Below are positions 2,234 to 42,085 of a stretch of DNA of 42,338 bases, piece after piece (the first letter of the stretch is position 1; every line of letters begins with the position of its first letter). Source of the DNA: a virus; the IMG/VR virus record IMGVR_UViG_3300028895_000534, positions 1 through 42,338 of that record; one strand, 5' to 3'. The notes beneath the pieces were generated by a model, which saw only the letters and a list, made by a program, of their open reading frames with translations, searched no databases and had not been told where the DNA came from. A program made the translations under genes and the position numbers.

Positions 2234-3940
2234 ATGTTGACAGAGAAAATGAGCCCCGCGATGTTAGAAAGCCTCCGTGAGAGGGCGAAGGGGAATTTGT
2301 ACTTCTTCGCGAAGGGCATTCTTGGGTACGATTTCCTGGACCCGATCGTGCACCGCCCCTTGTGCCGCGTTCTCGAACTCTATGACGGATACAACTCCTC
2401 GCTCGATTCCCCGAAAGAAGAGTACGAGGAGGCCCTAAGAGAGGTAATTCTACGACATTCTGCAGTACGCGGGGTTCCTATAACAGAACACGAGATCGAG
2501 GAAAGAATCGAGGAAGCTCTTACAAGAGGAATAAAGAAATGTAAATTCACACTCCCTCGTGGCTGGCTTAAGACAACGGTTTGTTCTATATCCTACCCCC
2601 TATGGCGCTCTATTAGGAATCCCGATGTTAGAGTCCTCCTCACGCAGAATACCTATACAAACGCTTGCTCAAAACTCGCATCAATTAAAGGTCAGGTGGA
2701 ATCAAATGATCTGTTCCGAATCTTGTTCGCGGATCTCTTGCCCGGCGCAAGATCGAAGTGGAAAAGTGACTCGCTCTGTCTTACACGAAAAGGATCTTTC
2801 GCTGAATCTACGTTCGAAGCGGCAGGTGTCCGTACACAAGTTACCTCTCGACACTACGATCTCATCATCGAGGACGATACTGTTGCACCAGAGAGCGATG
2901 ATCTCACCGCTGATGTAGCGTGCCCCTCTCCTGAGGAAATAGCGAAGGCAATTGGCTGGCATAAGCTAACGATACCTTTGCTCGTGGACCCCGGCAAGGG
3001 TCAGAATCTCGTGGTGGGAACACGATGGGCGGAATACGATATTCTTTCCTATATTGATGAAAAGGAGCCCTATTATTGGAGCGTCCAACGAGCCTCCCGT
3101 GAGAATTCCGATGGTACCGAGAATCCCAAGGGAACAATCTGCTATCCCAGTCGCTTCCCCGAGCATGTTCTAAAGAGTATAGAAACATCTCTTGGCCCCT
3201 ATATGTTCGCGGCCCTCTATCGCAATAAACCCATGGCTGCGTCCGACATGACGTTTAAGCCGAGTTGGATAAAGTACTACGAAACCGAGCCACAATCCCT
3301 AATCGTATACACAACCGTTGACCTCGCTACTGATCCCTCTATCGCAAAAGGCTCTAAGCTAGACTACAATGTAGTTCTAACTACTGGAAAATGTCTCATA
3401 AGCGGGGACATCTATATCCTCGATATATGGCGCAAACATGCGAACCCCTCCGAGGTTATTAACGAGATCTTTCGACAAGTGCAAACCTACGGTTCTCTTA
3501 AGGTAGGTGTTGAGTCGGTCGCGTATCAATCCACGATGCTGTATTGGATTCGTGAGAAGCAGCAGGAGAAGAAATATTGGTTCGCTATTGATCCCATTAC
3601 GCATGGGAAAAGAGCAAAGGGTTCTCGTATCCAGGGCCTCCAACCGTTATTCGCGGATGGAAGAGTTCTTCTACGAAAGCATCATGGTGTTCTCGTAAAC
3701 GAACTCCTCTCGTTCCCGATGGGACAAAACGATGACGTAATAGACTGCTTATCTATGCAGCTCCGTTATTGGAATCTCACGAAGAGCGCTAAGGATATAA
3801 AGCAACAAAAGATAAAGGATGATCCTCTTTCCATCGACTTCGCTCTGGAGCAGATTCAGAATCGTGGAAAGAAGAAGGGATTCCCATATGATATCTCCCG
3901 AATAAACAGTCCCTCTACGGGGATACACAGAAGGAATTAA
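2234..3940 (+). CDS. terL: Terminase large subunit (packaging ATPase-nuclease)
   Basis: This is the two-domain packaging motor. With ATG 2234 (568 aa) the ATPase shows a deviant Walker A (LPRGWLKTT, residues about 107-115), Walker B (YDLIIEDD, 208-215) and coupling motif VVGTRW (260-265). The RNase H-like nuclease supplies D363 in VDLATD, E427 in GVES and D500/D501 in NDDVIDC. It translocates DNA through the portal and cuts the concatemer. An upstream in-frame TTG at 2189 would add 15 residues, but that stretch is a near copy of the untranslated leader at 1945-1977, so ATG 2234 is preferred. Next gene starts 4 bases after the stop. Confidence 0.93.
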   Translation: MLTEKMSPAMLESLRERAKGNLYFFAKGILGYDFLDPIVHRPLCRVLELYDGYNSSLDSPKEEYEEALREVILRHSAVRGVPITEHEIEERIEEALTRGIKKCKFTLPRGWLKTTVCSISYPLWRSIRNPDVRVLLTQNTYTNACSKLASIKGQVESNDLFRILFADLLPGARSKWKSDSLCLTRKGSFAESTFEAAGVRTQVTSRHYDLIIEDDTVAPESDDLTADVACPSPEEIAKAIGWHKLTIPLLVDPGKGQNLVVGTRWAEYDILSYIDEKEPYYWSVQRASRENSDGTENPKGTICYPSRFPEHVLKSIETSLGPYMFAALYRNKPMAASDMTFKPSWIKYYETEPQSLIVYTTVDLATDPSIAKGSKLDYNVVLTTGKCLISGDIYILDIWRKHANPSEVINEIFRQVQTYGSLKVGVESVAYQSTMLYWIREKQQEKKYWFAIDPITHGKRAKGSRIQGLQPLFADGRVLLRKHHGVLVNELLSFPMGQNDDVIDCLSMQLRYWNLTKSAKDIKQQKIKDDPLSIDFALEQIQNRGKKKGFPYDISRINSPSTGIHRRN

Positions 3941-32169: not shown

Positions 32170-32565
32170 TTATTCAGGCGCGATGAACTGTTTTACCTGC
32201 GCGGTTAAGCGAGGCTTTGCGCCCTCTTCCTTGGGAGTATACATCTCGTGCTTGACAAGGACCTTTACCAGTGTTCCTACGAACTCCGCGAGATCTATTC
32301 CTTCTTCCGAGGGAGTGAGGCCCGCGCTGATGATCATTTTCTTCAGGCTGCGGGCTCCGAGCGGGGTCCATATGCAATGGTTCGCGAAGAGCATACGACC
32401 CTTGTCGTCGCACTCGTCCGTTATGATCATTCGGGCCGCGATCATCTGACCGCCACTCTTCTGTTCTACCGTGGGCTCTTCCTGGATCTCGCAGAGATAA
32501 ACGCCTTCTGCGACGGGAGGATCTTCGTCGGGTACATTGTTGAAGTTAAGATTTACTATAGTCAT
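32170..32565 (-). CDS. DUF669-type single-stranded DNA-binding protein, 131 aa
   Basis: An OB-fold-like protein: N-terminal strand with VAEGVYLCEIQ, central GGQMIAARMII and a Lys-rich strand region, acidic linkers and a short C-terminus (QFIAPE). This matches the DUF669 family, phage ssDNA-binding proteins commonly encoded next to Sak4-like ATPases. Strong site AAGGAAAAAGAAA. It would coat ssDNA in replication and in annealing with the neighbouring Sak4-like protein. Highly expressed by codon and terminator context. Confidence 0.65.
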   Translation of the reverse strand: MTIVNLNFNNVPDEDPPVAEGVYLCEIQEEPTVEQKSGGQMIAARMIITDECDDKGRMLFANHCIWTPLGARSLKKMIISAGLTPSEEGIDLAEFVGTLVKVLVKHEMYTPKEEGAKPRLTAQVKQFIAPE

Positions 32566-35774: not shown

Positions 35775-36126
35775 CTTTTTCTTCCTCTCGGAGGATCTCG
35801 AGCGCGGTGTTTATCGCGGTTTCTGTGTCCTCGTCAGTTAGTTCCATTGTTTCGATGTGAGCTAGGATTCTCTGGGTGGGATGGTGGAGGACTATAAGGT
35901 GGCCCTTTTCTCCTGGGAATTGCCAGAGAATGAAGCCGCATCTTTTGTCTGTTAGTTCTTTTCCCTTGTTGTAGAGTTCTTCCGTGGGGCAGGGGTAGAA
36001 GAGGCCTGTGTACTGGCCGTGCGTGGAATGGTATTGTGCTCCGGGGATAAAGAGTTCTTTTTCTTTCTCTTTCTCTTTCTTGAGTTCTTCTCGGACTTTG
36101 TTGAGTTCATCTGGCATACTGATCAT
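35764..36126 (-). CDS. Hypothetical protein, 120 aa
   Basis: Site AAAGGA before ATG 36126; overlaps its neighbours by 11 and 20 bases. A Lys/Glu-rich helix (residues 5-25) precedes a compact domain with conserved-looking aromatic and Cys residues (GLFYPCP, CGFILWQFPGEK, IVLHHPTQRIL) and an acidic helical tail. No family recognised. Confidence 0.6.
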   Translation of the reverse strand: MISMPDELNKVREELKKEKEKEKELFIPGAQYHSTHGQYTGLFYPCPTEELYNKGKELTDKRCGFILWQFPGEKGHLIVLHHPTQRILAHIETMELTDEDTETAINTALEILREEEKDVS

Positions 36127-36526
36127 TTTCTATTCCTTTCAGGCGTTCTAGGATATTTCTAGAGAGCGGGCTTACTCGGGCCCGCGGAATCTCTAGTTCT
36201 CTTGATATTTGTTTATAGGATAGGTTTAGAATGTGGCGGTAGTATAGGATTTGTTGTTCGAGTTCTGTTAGGTTTGCTTTTTCTATAAGGGTTTCGAGAT
36301 CGGTTGTTGGGAGGAGAAATCTAGGCGGGGGCTTTTCTGGGTCGAATAAAAGCCCGCGCATGGGTTTCTTTCTCTTGCGGATTTGATCTAAGATTCTGCA
36401 GCGGATTAGCCAGTTCTTGGGTTGCTTATCCGGGTGTTCCTGGAACCATATCCAGACATCATGGGCGATATCGAGGTGGTCATAGCGGACCATTTTTCTA
36501 GATATGGATAGGATTTTCTTGTACAT
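36107..36526 (-). CDS. Divergent ECF-sigma-like factor, 139 aa
   Basis: Residues about 15-55 resemble sigma region 2 (DIAHDVWIWF...WLIRCRILDQIRKRKK), and residues 85-130 are a region-4-type helix-turn-helix (LTELEQQILYYRHILNLSYKQISRELEIPRARVSPL). It is shorter than classical ECF factors, which are usually 160-200 residues. Plausible job: redirecting host RNA polymerase to late promoters such as that at 1348-1376, whose -10 box is weak. It could instead be a simple HTH regulator. Confidence 0.6.
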   Translation of the reverse strand: MYKKILSISRKMVRYDHLDIAHDVWIWFQEHPDKQPKNWLIRCRILDQIRKRKKPMRGLLFDPEKPPPRFLLPTTDLETLIEKANLTELEQQILYYRHILNLSYKQISRELEIPRARVSPLSRNILERLKGIENDQYAR

Positions 36527-37212: not shown

Positions 37213-37377
37213 CTATACCTCGGTTATTGTTAGGTTAGTGGGCTGAACGTAGGTATCAGGATCGAACGTTGTCCATTCTGCTTCTGTGAGATTTATCACA
37301 GTGTTTCCCTCGACTGTTAGGTAGAGTCTGCGTTTGTATTTGAAAGTATCGCCTTTTGTGAGGTGCTTGATCTTTAC
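37213..37377 (-). CDS. YLT-domain protein without a standard start codon, about 54 aa
   Basis: From GTA 37377 an open frame encodes VKIKHLTKGDTF...RRLYLTVEGNTVINLTEAEW and ends in TAG 37215-37213. The sequence looks genuinely coding and shares the short pattern RxLYLT--GxxxxxNL with the proteins at 38195-38425 and 38060-38194. No ATG, GTG or TTG precedes it in frame before the tRNA-like element, yet GGA sits 7 bases before GTA. Rare initiation, a sequence error, or a processed fusion are possible. Confidence 0.4.
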   Translation of the reverse strand, partial: VKIKHLTKGDTFKYKRRLYLTVEGNTVINLTEAEWTTFDPDTYVQPTNLTITEV

Positions 37378-37416: not shown

Positions 37417-37516
37417 AACGGTGGTAGGAGTCGAACCATACAGATCTTGAATTTAGATATCATGTTCTAGATCTAGAACCATGCCATGCTTTCGCTGGGA
37501 TCACTTTCTCACCGTT
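37417..37516 (-). ncRNA. tRNA-like element 1
   Basis: On the minus strand AACGGTG (37516-37510) and CACCGTT (37423-37417) form a perfect 7-bp acceptor-like stem. The T-loop box GGTTCGACTCC is exact, and GTA/TAC extends its stem across a one-base bulge. The middle is abnormal: TTCTAGA/TCTAGAA makes a near-perfect dyad with no 7-base anticodon loop, and the variable region is long, as in Ser/Leu/Tyr tRNAs. No CCA is encoded. Either a degenerate class II tRNA or a tRNA mimic; a standard tRNA call would be wrong. Confidence 0.55.
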
Positions 37517-37612
37517 GTTTGGTTGGAGGGGGTTTGATTATTCCCCTCCAACCGGGTTGGATTCTAGTAGTAAAGAACTCCTAAATTCCTGCTGCTAGAA
37601 TCCCTTTTTCTT

Positions 37613-37993
37613 TTAGTCGAGATCCTCGTCATTGTTATCGTCAATGGGGGTCTCGACGGGTTCGGCTGCCGCGTCCTCGTATTGCTTCTTGAGGATAGCG
37701 GTTTCCTCTGCGATGCGATTCACGAGCCAGGCCTTGTCGCCGGCGTGTGCGGCGATTTCCTCGGGCGGAATTGCCTGGAATGCCTGCATCTGGAGGTCCA
37801 GCTTGGACGGCTTACCTGTGACGGCTGCACGGAGGCGCTGTGCATTCGTCTGTTTAATCTGGGCGTTGATGAATCCGAGGATAATGGATTCGCCCTGATC
37901 TGCGACTGCTTCCTCTACTGTTTCGAAGATAGGGAACGTAGCTGTTCCGACAACTTTTCCGCCACTTCTTACCGGGGTTGAACCTTCTTGCAT
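37613..37993 (-). CDS. Hypothetical acidic protein, 126 aa
   Basis: Site AGGAG before ATG 37993, with a leader shared in part with the genes at 160-372 and 450-905. Biased codons (GCG, GGC, ATC) suggest high expression. The product is helical with a Gln-rich centre (INAQIKQTNAQRLRAAVTGK) and an acidic disordered C-terminus (PIDDNNDEDLD), a combination seen in ssDNA-binding or DNA-mimic proteins. No family recognised. Confidence 0.65.
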   Translation of the reverse strand: MQEGSTPVRSGGKVVGTATFPIFETVEEAVADQGESIILGFINAQIKQTNAQRLRAAVTGKPSKLDLQMQAFQAIPPEEIAAHAGDKAWLVNRIAEETAILKKQYEDAAAEPVETPIDDNNDEDLD

Positions 37994-38194: not shown

Positions 38195-38425
38195 TTAGTC
38201 GAGTTTGATTTTGCTGCAGGAATCAAGCTGGATGCCTGCGTTCTCTGCGATCTTATTGCTGAAGTGACTCATGCGGATTAGTTTTCCTTCGGGGGTTATT
38301 TCAAGGAGGCAGCTTGCTTGATAAGGTTCACCGAGGTTTATTTGTATTCGGTCTCCGTTTTTTGTTAGATACATTCTCTCGGGCTTTTTTCTTTCTTCGG
38401 TTGATTCGATCGTGATATTTAGCAT
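38195..38425 (-). CDS. YLTK-domain protein, 76 aa
   Basis: Site AAAAGGAAAACAAG before ATG 38425. The domain MYLTKNGDRIQINLG...CLLEITPEGKLIRM is short and beta-rich; a helical C-terminal extension follows. It heads a small paralogous family with the two frames at 38060-38194 and 37213-37377. It is the first gene downstream of the structured RNA at 38466-38692. Function unknown. Confidence 0.6.
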   Translation of the reverse strand: MLNITIESTEERKKPERMYLTKNGDRIQINLGEPYQASCLLEITPEGKLIRMSHFSNKIAENAGIQLDSCSKIKLD

Positions 38426-38465
38426 CTTGTTTTCCTTTTCTTTCTAGGAATAGTGGATAGGGTAT

Positions 38466-38692
38466 AGTGATAGAAGGGATTCGAACCCTTTGTTTTGGTT
38501 CCATCTGGTGGAGTCTGGCGAAGGACTCGGGGCCAGTCTGGTGTGGAGAGAAAGGAGAAAAACTCCACACCGCCGGATCTATCACTCTTTTCCTTGAACA
38601 GGTTCTGTTTGTTCAACTGTTCTCTTTATAGAGAAAGGAATTTTCTATCTCGATCACCTGTCGAGAATAGGGGATTCCTCACCTGTTCAAGG
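38466..38692 (-). ncRNA. Candidate structured RNA with tRNA-like 3' domain
   Basis: No gene lies between 38426 and 38748. Reading on the minus strand: a 12-bp outer helix (38692-38681 with 38603-38592) encloses a hairpin built of AGGAAT/ATTCCT, CTA/TAG and TCTCGA/TCGAGA, and a second hairpin TTCTCT-ATAA-AGAGAA. Five bases later a tRNA-like part begins: acceptor AGTGATAG/CTATCACT, perfect T-arm AAGGG-TTCGAAT-CCCTT (38490-38474), but instead of D- and anticodon arms a 9-bp helix GGTGTGGAG/CTCCACACC and an imperfect 8-bp helix. No CCA encoded. Could be an RNase P/Z-processed regulatory RNA. Confidence 0.65.
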
Positions 38693-38748: not shown

Positions 38749-39135
38749 CTATGCACCTTTCTTCTGGAGATAGTAGGATTCTTTCTGGCTGTTTTCTATT
38801 TCTTCCAGGATACGGTAGGTTGGGATCGGTGGGAAGGAATAGAACCATTTCTTGCACTTTCGGCAATGGTAGATTACTTTCTTTTCCTTGTCGTAGGTGT
38901 GGATTCTCATGTCCTCCCGGCAGCATTTTTTATCTTTTGGGAGGCTTTTGTTTTTGTTTATTTGCTGGAGGATTAGATCTACGCAGGAATTTATTGGGGA
39001 GACTTCTAGTTTGCGGTTCTTGACGGTGAAGTTGTTATCTTTCCCGCGGACTGCTTTTCCTATTACGAGATTTTCCCATTTTATTTGGAACGAGTGGGTT
39101 GAGAGCCATTTTGTCTCGATTAATAGACCGGTCAT
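38749..39135 (-). CDS. Hypothetical protein with C-terminal CxxC, 128 aa
   Basis: The N-terminal 60 residues are beta-like and basic; the second half holds CCRED and HCRKCKKWF, which together could form a zinc site, and a helical end. It is the gene immediately upstream of the structured RNA. A 22-codon ATG frame (about 38678-38745) after its stop is very basic and weakly supported, so it is not listed as a gene. Confidence 0.6.
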   Translation of the reverse strand: MTGLLIETKWLSTHSFQIKWENLVIGKAVRGKDNNFTVKNRKLEVSPINSCVDLILQQINKNKSLPKDKKCCREDMRIHTYDKEKKVIYHCRKCKKWFYSFPPIPTYRILEEIENSQKESYYLQKKGA

Positions 39136-41452: not shown

Positions 41453-41887
41453 TTATCTTGCAAGAGCTTTCCTGTGTTCTTCTTTTGATAGAAATACTTT
41501 CATGAATATTGCACGGTTTCCTTTTCGTGCTATGAATTGACTTCTGTGGACCTTTAGTTTCACGATTCTGTCACAGGATTTCATATAGGAACCGGTGCAG
41601 TATTTGTTCAGACAGACGTGGATACCGCGGTTTACGCAGATCACGTTAGAAAGATAATCAATATCAAGGGGATCTTTCCCAAGTTCCTTTTTCTCTCTAT
41701 TCGAGACAATCCAGCCGGGCTTGATTTCGTTGGAATCCCGGTGAACGCAACGATAGGCGGGGATCAGTATATTGCGTTTTTCTATCCTGTCATATATTTG
41801 TTCGTAGAACTTATAGACAAATGCCCAACCGTTTTCGTCGAATTCCATTTCCTGTGGCGGTTTGTTTTTCTTGATTTCTAGGCACAT
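41453..41887 (-). CDS. Hypothetical phage protein, 144 aa
   Basis: A well-formed gene of mixed fold. Conserved-looking features include a WAFVYKFYEQIYDRIEKRN helix, several Cys (RCVHRD, VICVNRG, HVCLNKYCTGS, SCDR) and a GIHVCLN segment like that in small uncharacterised phage proteins with a G(F/I)H pattern. The cysteines could bind metal. It begins the early arm after two leader elements. Function unknown. Confidence 0.6.
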   Translation of the reverse strand: MCLEIKKNKPPQEMEFDENGWAFVYKFYEQIYDRIEKRNILIPAYRCVHRDSNEIKPGWIVSNREKKELGKDPLDIDYLSNVICVNRGIHVCLNKYCTGSYMKSCDRIVKLKVHRSQFIARKGNRAIFMKVFLSKEEHRKALAR

Positions 41888-41995
41888 TTTTCTATTCTTT
41901 CTCCTAAGATTCTTTTCCTAAGATCTCTATACCGCACGTAGAGTGAATTTTATTCTACCACACGTGCCCATATTCTTCTTTCAGAATATCTTTTT
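41888..41995 (-). promoter_or_regulatory. Leader of 41453-41887 with hairpin and partial leader element (copy 4)
   Basis: Contains GCGGTATAGAGATCTTAGGA (minus, about 41935-41916), a partial match to GCGGTACAGCGATCTTAGGA of the neighbouring leader, then a second CTTAGGAG ribosome-type block before ATG 41887. Further upstream a perfect 7-bp hairpin ATATTCT/AGAATAT (41970-41989) follows the micro-ORF 41996-42043. No other gene is seen here. Confidence 0.4.
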
Positions 41996-42043
41996 TCAAA
42001 GACTCTTGCAATGCATATCTCCGATTACTTTTCCTGTTTTCAT
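41996..42043 (-). CDS. Micro-ORF, 15 aa
   Basis: ATG 42043 has an ideal AGGAGAAAAGAA site but reads only MKTGKVIGDMHCKSL before TGA. The first codons match those of 41224-41400 (ATGAAAACA), so it may be a gene remnant or a leader peptide for the next gene. Confidence 0.35.
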   Translation of the reverse strand: MKTGKVIGDMHCKSL

Positions 42044-42048
42044 TTCTT

Positions 42049-42085
42049 TTCTCCTAAGATCGCTGTACCGCTCTACGAGCGGGGA
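42049..42085 (-). promoter_or_regulatory. Leader hairpin element (copy 5)
   Basis: On the minus strand CCGCT-CGTAG-AGCGG (42082-42068) is followed by TACAGCGATCTTAGGAG. The ACAGCGATCT core is identical to the leaders at 1945-1957 and 2199-2211 on the opposite arm. Confidence 0.5.

Follow-up and report, generated by a model that had tools for sequence, protein, structure and literature searches.

Two non-coding elements in a tailed-phage genome, which we call TLS1 and TLS2, carry a tRNA-like acceptor stem and T-arm around unrelated hairpins, lie between genes on the coding strand, and have a pairing potential seldom matched by chance. In our best explanation, which we hold with about even confidence, these are tRNA-shell RNAs that RNase P of the host cuts out of the early message. 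Beyond this genome, we recovered a set of phage RNAs in which a constant tRNA-Leu shell encloses changing inserts; tRNA-shell RNAs are probably a real and largely uncharted phage class, with a putative function in message cutting or as stable small RNAs, and the class itself is the more interesting result than the single window element.

The window—by which we mean the whole stretch analysed, 42,338 bases—is the complete IMG/VR virus record IMGVR_UViG_3300028895_000534. The genome is that of a tailed phage, with a terminase, portal, major head protein, and family-A DNA polymerase among the proteins scanned; it also encodes a DNA primase/helicase, a Sak4-like protein, and an exonuclease, and is distantly akin to Microcystis phage Mel-JY34 and other phages of ~40-44 kb. 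TLS1 and the folded domain preceding it occupy the gap between minus-strand genes 38749-39135 and 38195-38425, with every part on the minus strand, which is the strand of the flanking genes and the coding strand here; the early-gene location claimed for the RNA at 38466-38692 was supported. One early gene (36107-36526, minus strand) encodes a sigma-70 region 4 domain (PF04545), possibly that of a phage transcription factor. On the same strand, 41880-42060 holds two gene leaders that have a common GATCTTAGGA(G)AAAAGAA-type sequence with a hairpin before it (fold z -5.8), and at ~37215-37375 an open frame (VKIKHLTKGDTFKYKRRLYL...) lies 3' of an AAGGA motif and starts with GTA rather than ATG, GTG, or TTG. 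The features of the TLS1 region are as follows.

38749 to 39135, minus strand: gene of 128 aa on the upstream side of TLS1, without a family match
38592 to 38692, minus strand: multi-helix domain preceding TLS1, with a 12-bp closing helix (38681-38692 with 38592-38603)
38587 to 38591, minus strand: 5-nt spacer between the upstream domain and TLS1
38466 to 38586, minus strand: TLS1 (tRNA-like element 1), 121 nt, comprising acceptor stem, two replacement hairpins, and T-arm
38579 to 38586, minus strand: 5' strand of the TLS1 acceptor, AGTGATAG
38540 to 38571, minus strand: arm A of TLS1, where a D-arm would be, a hairpin of 9 bp (GGTGTGGAG/CTCCACACC)
38511 to 38528, minus strand: arm B of TLS1, where an anticodon arm would be, a hairpin of 5 bp (GAGTC/GACTC)
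38474 to 38490, minus strand: T-arm of TLS1, AAGGG-TTCGAAT-CCCTT, abutting the acceptor without a gap, as in tRNA
38466 to 38473, minus strand: 3' strand of the TLS1 acceptor, CTATCACT, with ATACCC next and CCA absent
38195 to 38425, minus strand: gene of 76 aa on the downstream side of TLS1, without a family match, starting ~40 nt past TLS1

The TLS1 acceptor (AGTGATAG/CTATCACT) is fully paired (8/8), as is its T-stem (5/5), and the minus strand of the 261-nt region folds with an MFE z of -5.3 against dinucleotide shuffles (plus strand of the TLS1 region, 281 nt: z = -3.9). The original prediction had described a 12-bp outer helix, a 5-base spacer, an 8-bp acceptor, and a perfect T-arm, the D- and anticodon arms being substituted by other helices; all of these are present on the minus strand, arms A and B are folded where the missing arms would be (z about -3.6 for these replacement helices), and the TCACCTG loop repeat noted on the plus strand reads CAGGTGA on the minus strand at 38654-38660. 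That description, correct in its coordinates and parts, overlooked TLS2 and did not anticipate that the TLS1 T-arm is outcompeted when the element is folded without constraints: the acceptor forms, but the T-arm is absent from the MFE structure and has a probability of about 0.26, the rival pairing being GAACC/GGUUC in an unmodified thermodynamic ensemble that leaves tRNA-type modification and tertiary contacts outside the model. This predicted low T-arm population is a real weakness of the tRNA-like reading. Nor is there an evident GG in a D-loop with which the T-loop could pair.

ARAGORN at default settings found no tRNA or tmRNA in the TLS1 region, an Rfam scan returned no family at threshold for that region, and the general tRNA model matched neither window element, in agreement with the earlier view that this is neither an ordinary tRNA nor a tmRNA. 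An intron-containing tRNA was rejected because ARAGORN called one only weakly, at a lowered threshold, and a tmRNA because the permuted call appeared only at the 70% threshold and ran off the sequence, with no tag reading frame identified. By ARAGORN and the Rfam tRNA model, TLS1 lacks the full cloverleaf with D-arm and anticodon arm; what it has is an acceptor directly adjoining a 5-bp T-stem with a TTCRANY loop, and thus the RNase P-type substrate outline that had been proposed for it is present in the structure. One could instead suppose a former phage tRNA gene whose D- and anticodon arms have degenerated and which is now functionless. Phage tRNA genes are easily gained and lost, and in relatives intact genes for tRNA-Leu(UAA) lie close to the polymerase; decay, however, would not spare both sides of the acceptor and T-stem while leaving the rest unrecognisable, the replacements are themselves strong helices, and the same plan is present twice, so that we consider a decayed gene improbable.

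The second instance of the plan came from a fold scan of the minus strand, which picked out the gap 37417-37602, 1 kb downstream of TLS1.

37613 to 37993, minus strand: gene separating TLS1 from TLS2, with homologues in L107, L087, and L005
37521 to 37602, minus strand: two hairpins just upstream of TLS2, one with an 8-bp core (37595-37602/37560-37567), the other of 11 bp (37543-37553/37521-37531)
37417 to 37516, minus strand: TLS2 (tRNA-like element 2), 100 nt, comprising acceptor, arms A and B, and T-arm
within 37417 to 37516, minus strand: TLS2 acceptor of 7 bp, AACGGTG/CACCGTT
within 37417 to 37516, minus strand: TLS2 T-arm, GTA(T)GG-TTCGACT-CCTAC, with one bulged U

Both the acceptor and the T-arm of TLS2 appear in the unconstrained MFE structure (probabilities at least 0.8 and about 0.7, respectively). 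TLS1 and TLS2 follow one plan—a hairpin domain, then acceptor, two arms, and T-arm, then a small open frame shortly downstream—and their inserts have nothing recognisable in common.

We evaluated chance occurrence with a textbook tRNA criterion, the element having been picked by eye beforehand: a 7-bp acceptor with at most one G-U, an adjoining 5-bp T-stem (one bulge allowed and penalised), and GTTCRANYC, a TLS1-grade score requiring 7 Watson-Crick acceptor pairs, 5 Watson-Crick T-stem pairs, and GTTCRANYC within 160 nt. Among 6000 first-order Markov versions of the window, scored by a scheme set after TLS1 was known and with a bulge rule set after TLS2 was known, 101 held any match, 22 a score of at least 15, and 2 a score of at least 17, and only 5/6000 held two or more matches of any score; the real window has two, scoring 17 and 15. 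(An earlier estimate with looser criteria is superseded by this test.) Overlapping open reading frames in the TLS1 region reach at most 0.03 bits/codon, against 0.18-0.39 for 16 genes, and the stretch is thus gene-free as originally described. The observation is correct and better than chance; the interpretation first given to it finds partial support.

No homologue of TLS1 was found in phage records by DNA similarity (E<=1), and searches for close relatives through the polymerase or a neighbouring gene in viral contigs, and through the polymerase in bacterial genomes, found none, the nearest relatives having a polymerase identity of 40% or less; with no homologues of TLS1 or TLS2 found, covariation support for the two elements themselves is absent. 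In L107 and L005, which carry homologues of gene 37613-37993, inspection of the syntenic gap revealed no tRNA-like element, which makes the element accessory. Distant relatives were reached by polymerase alignment, and 2.4 Mb of their DNA was scanned for an acceptor with T-arm. Strict matches (score of at least 19) were absent from shuffles, and non-tRNA elements were found in five contigs, all sharing the polymerase gene's strand and all lying between inferred genes, some overlapping alternative open reading frames that we judged spurious.

L038, 7190 to 7318 and 7805 to 7948, polymerase-gene strand: two acceptor and T-arm elements
L100, 7841 to 7901, polymerase-gene strand: one acceptor and T-arm element
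L119, 3708 to 3773, polymerase-gene strand: one acceptor and T-arm element
L122, 6285 to 6354 and, weaker, 1796 to 1861, polymerase-gene strand: two acceptor and T-arm elements
L096, 912 to 1094, polymerase-gene strand: one acceptor and T-arm element

Ordinary tRNA-Leu genes that encode CCA occur in L072, L123, L124/L125, and L130, and near 2667-2740 (minus strand) of L145 lies a tRNA-like sequence of ~70 nt with encoded CCA and no evident anticodon arm.

Structured RNA is common in the gap after the SSB-like gene across phages of this polymerase group; in L013, L024, L054, L094, L098, L100, and L124, for example, the gap contains hairpins of high stability, closed folds with several branches, genes for tRNA-Leu, or tRNA-like elements, and its counterpart in the window is a 12-bp hairpin downstream of gene 32170-32565. 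As a common position for the elements, this slot holds for L038, L100, L122, and several tRNA-Leu genes and not for the window elements. Three relatives with 70-80% DNA identity to one another differ here—L100 has a tRNA-like element, L094 a short hairpin, and L098 a larger closed fold—so the tRNA-like part is dispensable or exchangeable in those phages, and its occupation of a slot held elsewhere by a hairpin favours a role at the level of RNA processing. The abundance of stable hairpins in these gaps, notably after the SSB-like gene, and their exchange for other folds between close relatives also suit a simpler account, that the window elements are generic intergenic hairpins (an RNase III-type site or an mRNA stabiliser) whose tRNA-likeness is accidental. 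Against this stand the 2/6000 chance of a TLS1-type match for TLS1 alone and the recurrence of similar elements on the coding strand in distant relatives, and we think this account unlikely to be right.

The first L038 element carries a tRNA-Leu-type D-arm, and we therefore looked in viral contigs for the same D-arm with a T-arm downstream, ~22-56 nt farther away than normal, obtaining at least 120 matches. Among the matches listed, 68 of 80 sites combine acceptor pairing of at least 6/7 at the exact tRNA positions with a full T-stem, and ARAGORN at default settings called an ordinary tRNA at none of the 68; the general tRNA model of Rfam did place several above threshold, with a large insertion. 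In these RNAs (L264-L343; for example L290, L304, L314, L331, and L339), of which L038 element 1 is a member, acceptor, D-arm, and T-arm are intact and 62-92 unrelated bases, with no common sequence, stand where the anticodon and variable arms would be. With inserts removed, 40 distinct members show 98.8% of cells paired, 175 two-sided changes, and a covariation of 0.764, compared with 0.171 when shuffled and at most 0.14 when slid, so that the shell covaries strongly and, as judged from these alignments, the acceptor/T-arm layout covaries in other phage RNAs. An 8-bp acceptor was considered as a hallmark and rejected: a -1:73 pair is present in 32/40 members, but ordinary tRNA genes often have U-1/A73 as well. 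Within the inserts, 6-bp crossing helices can form in 22/65 against a shuffled mean of 8.8, simple helices being enriched too, and those of L290, L331, and L339, for example, contain a possible pseudoknot (AAGGTTA/TAACCTT with GATAAC/GTTATC). Like the window elements, these RNAs have a tRNA acceptor and T-arm, unrelated sequence in the anticodon region, and no default ARAGORN call; unlike TLS1 and TLS2, they have retained, next to the acceptor on its 3' side, a D-arm of the Leu type, TGGCGRAAYNGGYAGACGC. The window elements lie outside the strict shell class, lacking this D-arm, its one defining sequence feature.

The same search of bacterial genomes gave 36 members without an ARAGORN call, including Nostoc, Riemerella, and Planctomycetota; the set is mixed, and part of it resembles tRNA-Leu whose anticodon loop has grown. 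The bacterial contigs (L383-L500), among them L387 and L433 from cyanobacteria, L409 and L415 from Planctomycetota, and L420 and L431 from Alphaproteobacteria, carry tRNA-Leu-like genes in which the anticodon region is enlarged or replaced, and in some of these genes the anticodon stem is retained around a short insertion. Of 80 viral T-arms sampled independently, each matching the one in the window exactly, 67 belong to ordinary tRNAs, 4 to elements with acceptor and T-arm that receive no tRNA call, and 9 lack both such a call and a 5' acceptor that matches. These last (9/80) demonstrate that fragments consisting of a T-arm and 3' acceptor exist in phages, as would be needed if TLS1 were an attP-like tRNA 3' fragment serving integration. 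TLS1, however, has a 5' acceptor strand that is fully complementary, no integrase was found in the subset of ORFs whose proteins were scanned, and a search of viral contigs found its exact 3' end in none; we regard an integration site as very improbable.

The layout is also found in T4 RNA C (rnaC, species 1 RNA, 139 nt), and in this respect the description of TLS1 as a new structured RNA needs amendment: a non-coding multi-helix RNA on a tRNA-like acceptor and T-arm it is, but the layout is already that of RNA C, and a far wider shell class occurs among viral contigs. RNA C was confirmed by northern blot during infection in a 2022 transcriptome paper, where its function was called unknown (PMC9697503); in the literature covered, which stops short of older T4 work, we found no paper on its tRNA-like ends, and we claim no priority. 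Across five T4-like phages of different genera, 3/12 pairs show two-sided compensatory changes, and 3/500 shuffles reach the covariation score: the T-stem is paired in 5/5 with 2/5 pairs changing on both sides, and in the acceptor one A-U pair is exchanged for G-C. With n=5 sequences, these changes provide modest evidence that the predicted helices are maintained. The T4 gene itself corresponds to L137 2409-2547, with relatives in L138-L143; Enterobacter phage IME523 has a changed T-loop (TGCATGC) on a stem that is still paired.

How might such elements act? The acceptor stem with T-arm is the minimal outline for bacterial RNase P. Several non-tRNA phage RNAs, M3 RNA and C4 RNA among them, are processed by this enzyme (PMC11143913), and E. 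coli processes engineered tRNA scaffolds that have the anticodon arm replaced and that are stable there (PMC3753655); together with the minimal outline, these precedents suggest that the window elements are excised by tRNA enzymes. In the tRNA-shell reading, for which we infer transcription, RNase P processing, and stability, TLS1 would be a tRNA acceptor stem stacked on a T-arm, with unrelated hairpins inside and a separate folded domain before it, transcribed together with the early genes. Host tRNA-processing enzymes would recognise the acceptor/T-arm stack, RNase P cutting ahead of the acceptor at about 38586/38587 and tRNA 3' nucleases trimming near 38465, such that the polycistronic message would be split between two small genes and a compact RNA of ~120 nt released, protected by its tRNA-like ends. 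TLS2 (37417-37516) may act likewise 1 kb downstream.

Alternatively, the tRNA-like ends might only protect and mature a stable trans-acting RNA whose product acts elsewhere, by base pairing, by protein binding, or as a decoy—in the last case, bait for tRNA-binding or tRNA-cutting host defences. A constant shell around wholly different inserts, as in the shell class, is what varied cargo would produce; RNA C was seen as a separate RNA on the northern blot (PMC9697503), and tRNA-targeting defences are known, with phage tRNAs proposed as decoys (PMC13096335). On the other side, no target or partner was identified, the TLS1 and TLS2 inserts bear no recognisable likeness to each other, and a CCA tail is not encoded, which leaves trans action a doubtful proposition at roughly one chance in several, ahead of the other alternatives.

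It is conceivable, though we would put it somewhat below an even chance, that the window elements, T4 RNA C, and the tRNA-Leu-shell RNAs represent one widespread phage strategy, in which unrelated functional RNAs are wrapped in a tRNA shell and host tRNA enzymes excise and protect them. If so, Rfam has no separate family for this strategy and default tRNA finders miss it, a warning that many tRNA-like phage genes are passed over. With the RNA C layout present in unrelated phages, twice in this window, and a strongly covarying shell around unrelated inserts in many viral contigs, what was an orphan becomes a class open to comparative testing, by the logic that the shell is constant and the cargo changes.

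Among known systems, RNA C resembles the window element in layout: an acceptor-like stem sits directly on a perfect T-arm (CCGGG-TTCGAAT-CCCGG), a long multi-helix domain replaces the D- and anticodon arms, CCA is absent, and the gene is intergenic. The resemblance is not one of homology, as the two have no sequence similarity and the window element matched no phage record at E<=1, whereas rnaC, at the end of a tRNA cluster, was found in 718. The T4 acceptor also contains two U-U mismatches, although in Yersinia phage TG1 7/7 acceptor pairs form. The tRNA-like domain of tmRNA likewise combines acceptor and T-arm without an anticodon arm, but the window element is far too short for a tmRNA and no tag reading frame was identified in it. 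In mitochondria, tRNA structures between genes mark where a polycistronic RNA is cut (PMC8601606); that punctuation uses real tRNAs, whereas the window has tRNA-like elements only and their cutting is putative. Finally, the engineered tRNA scaffold (Ponchon/Dardel type) would have its counterparts in nature in tRNA-shell RNAs; the scaffold likewise carries RNA cargo at the anticodon-arm site and uses tRNA ends for processing and stability, and differs in being artificial and in retaining the D-arm (PMC3753655).
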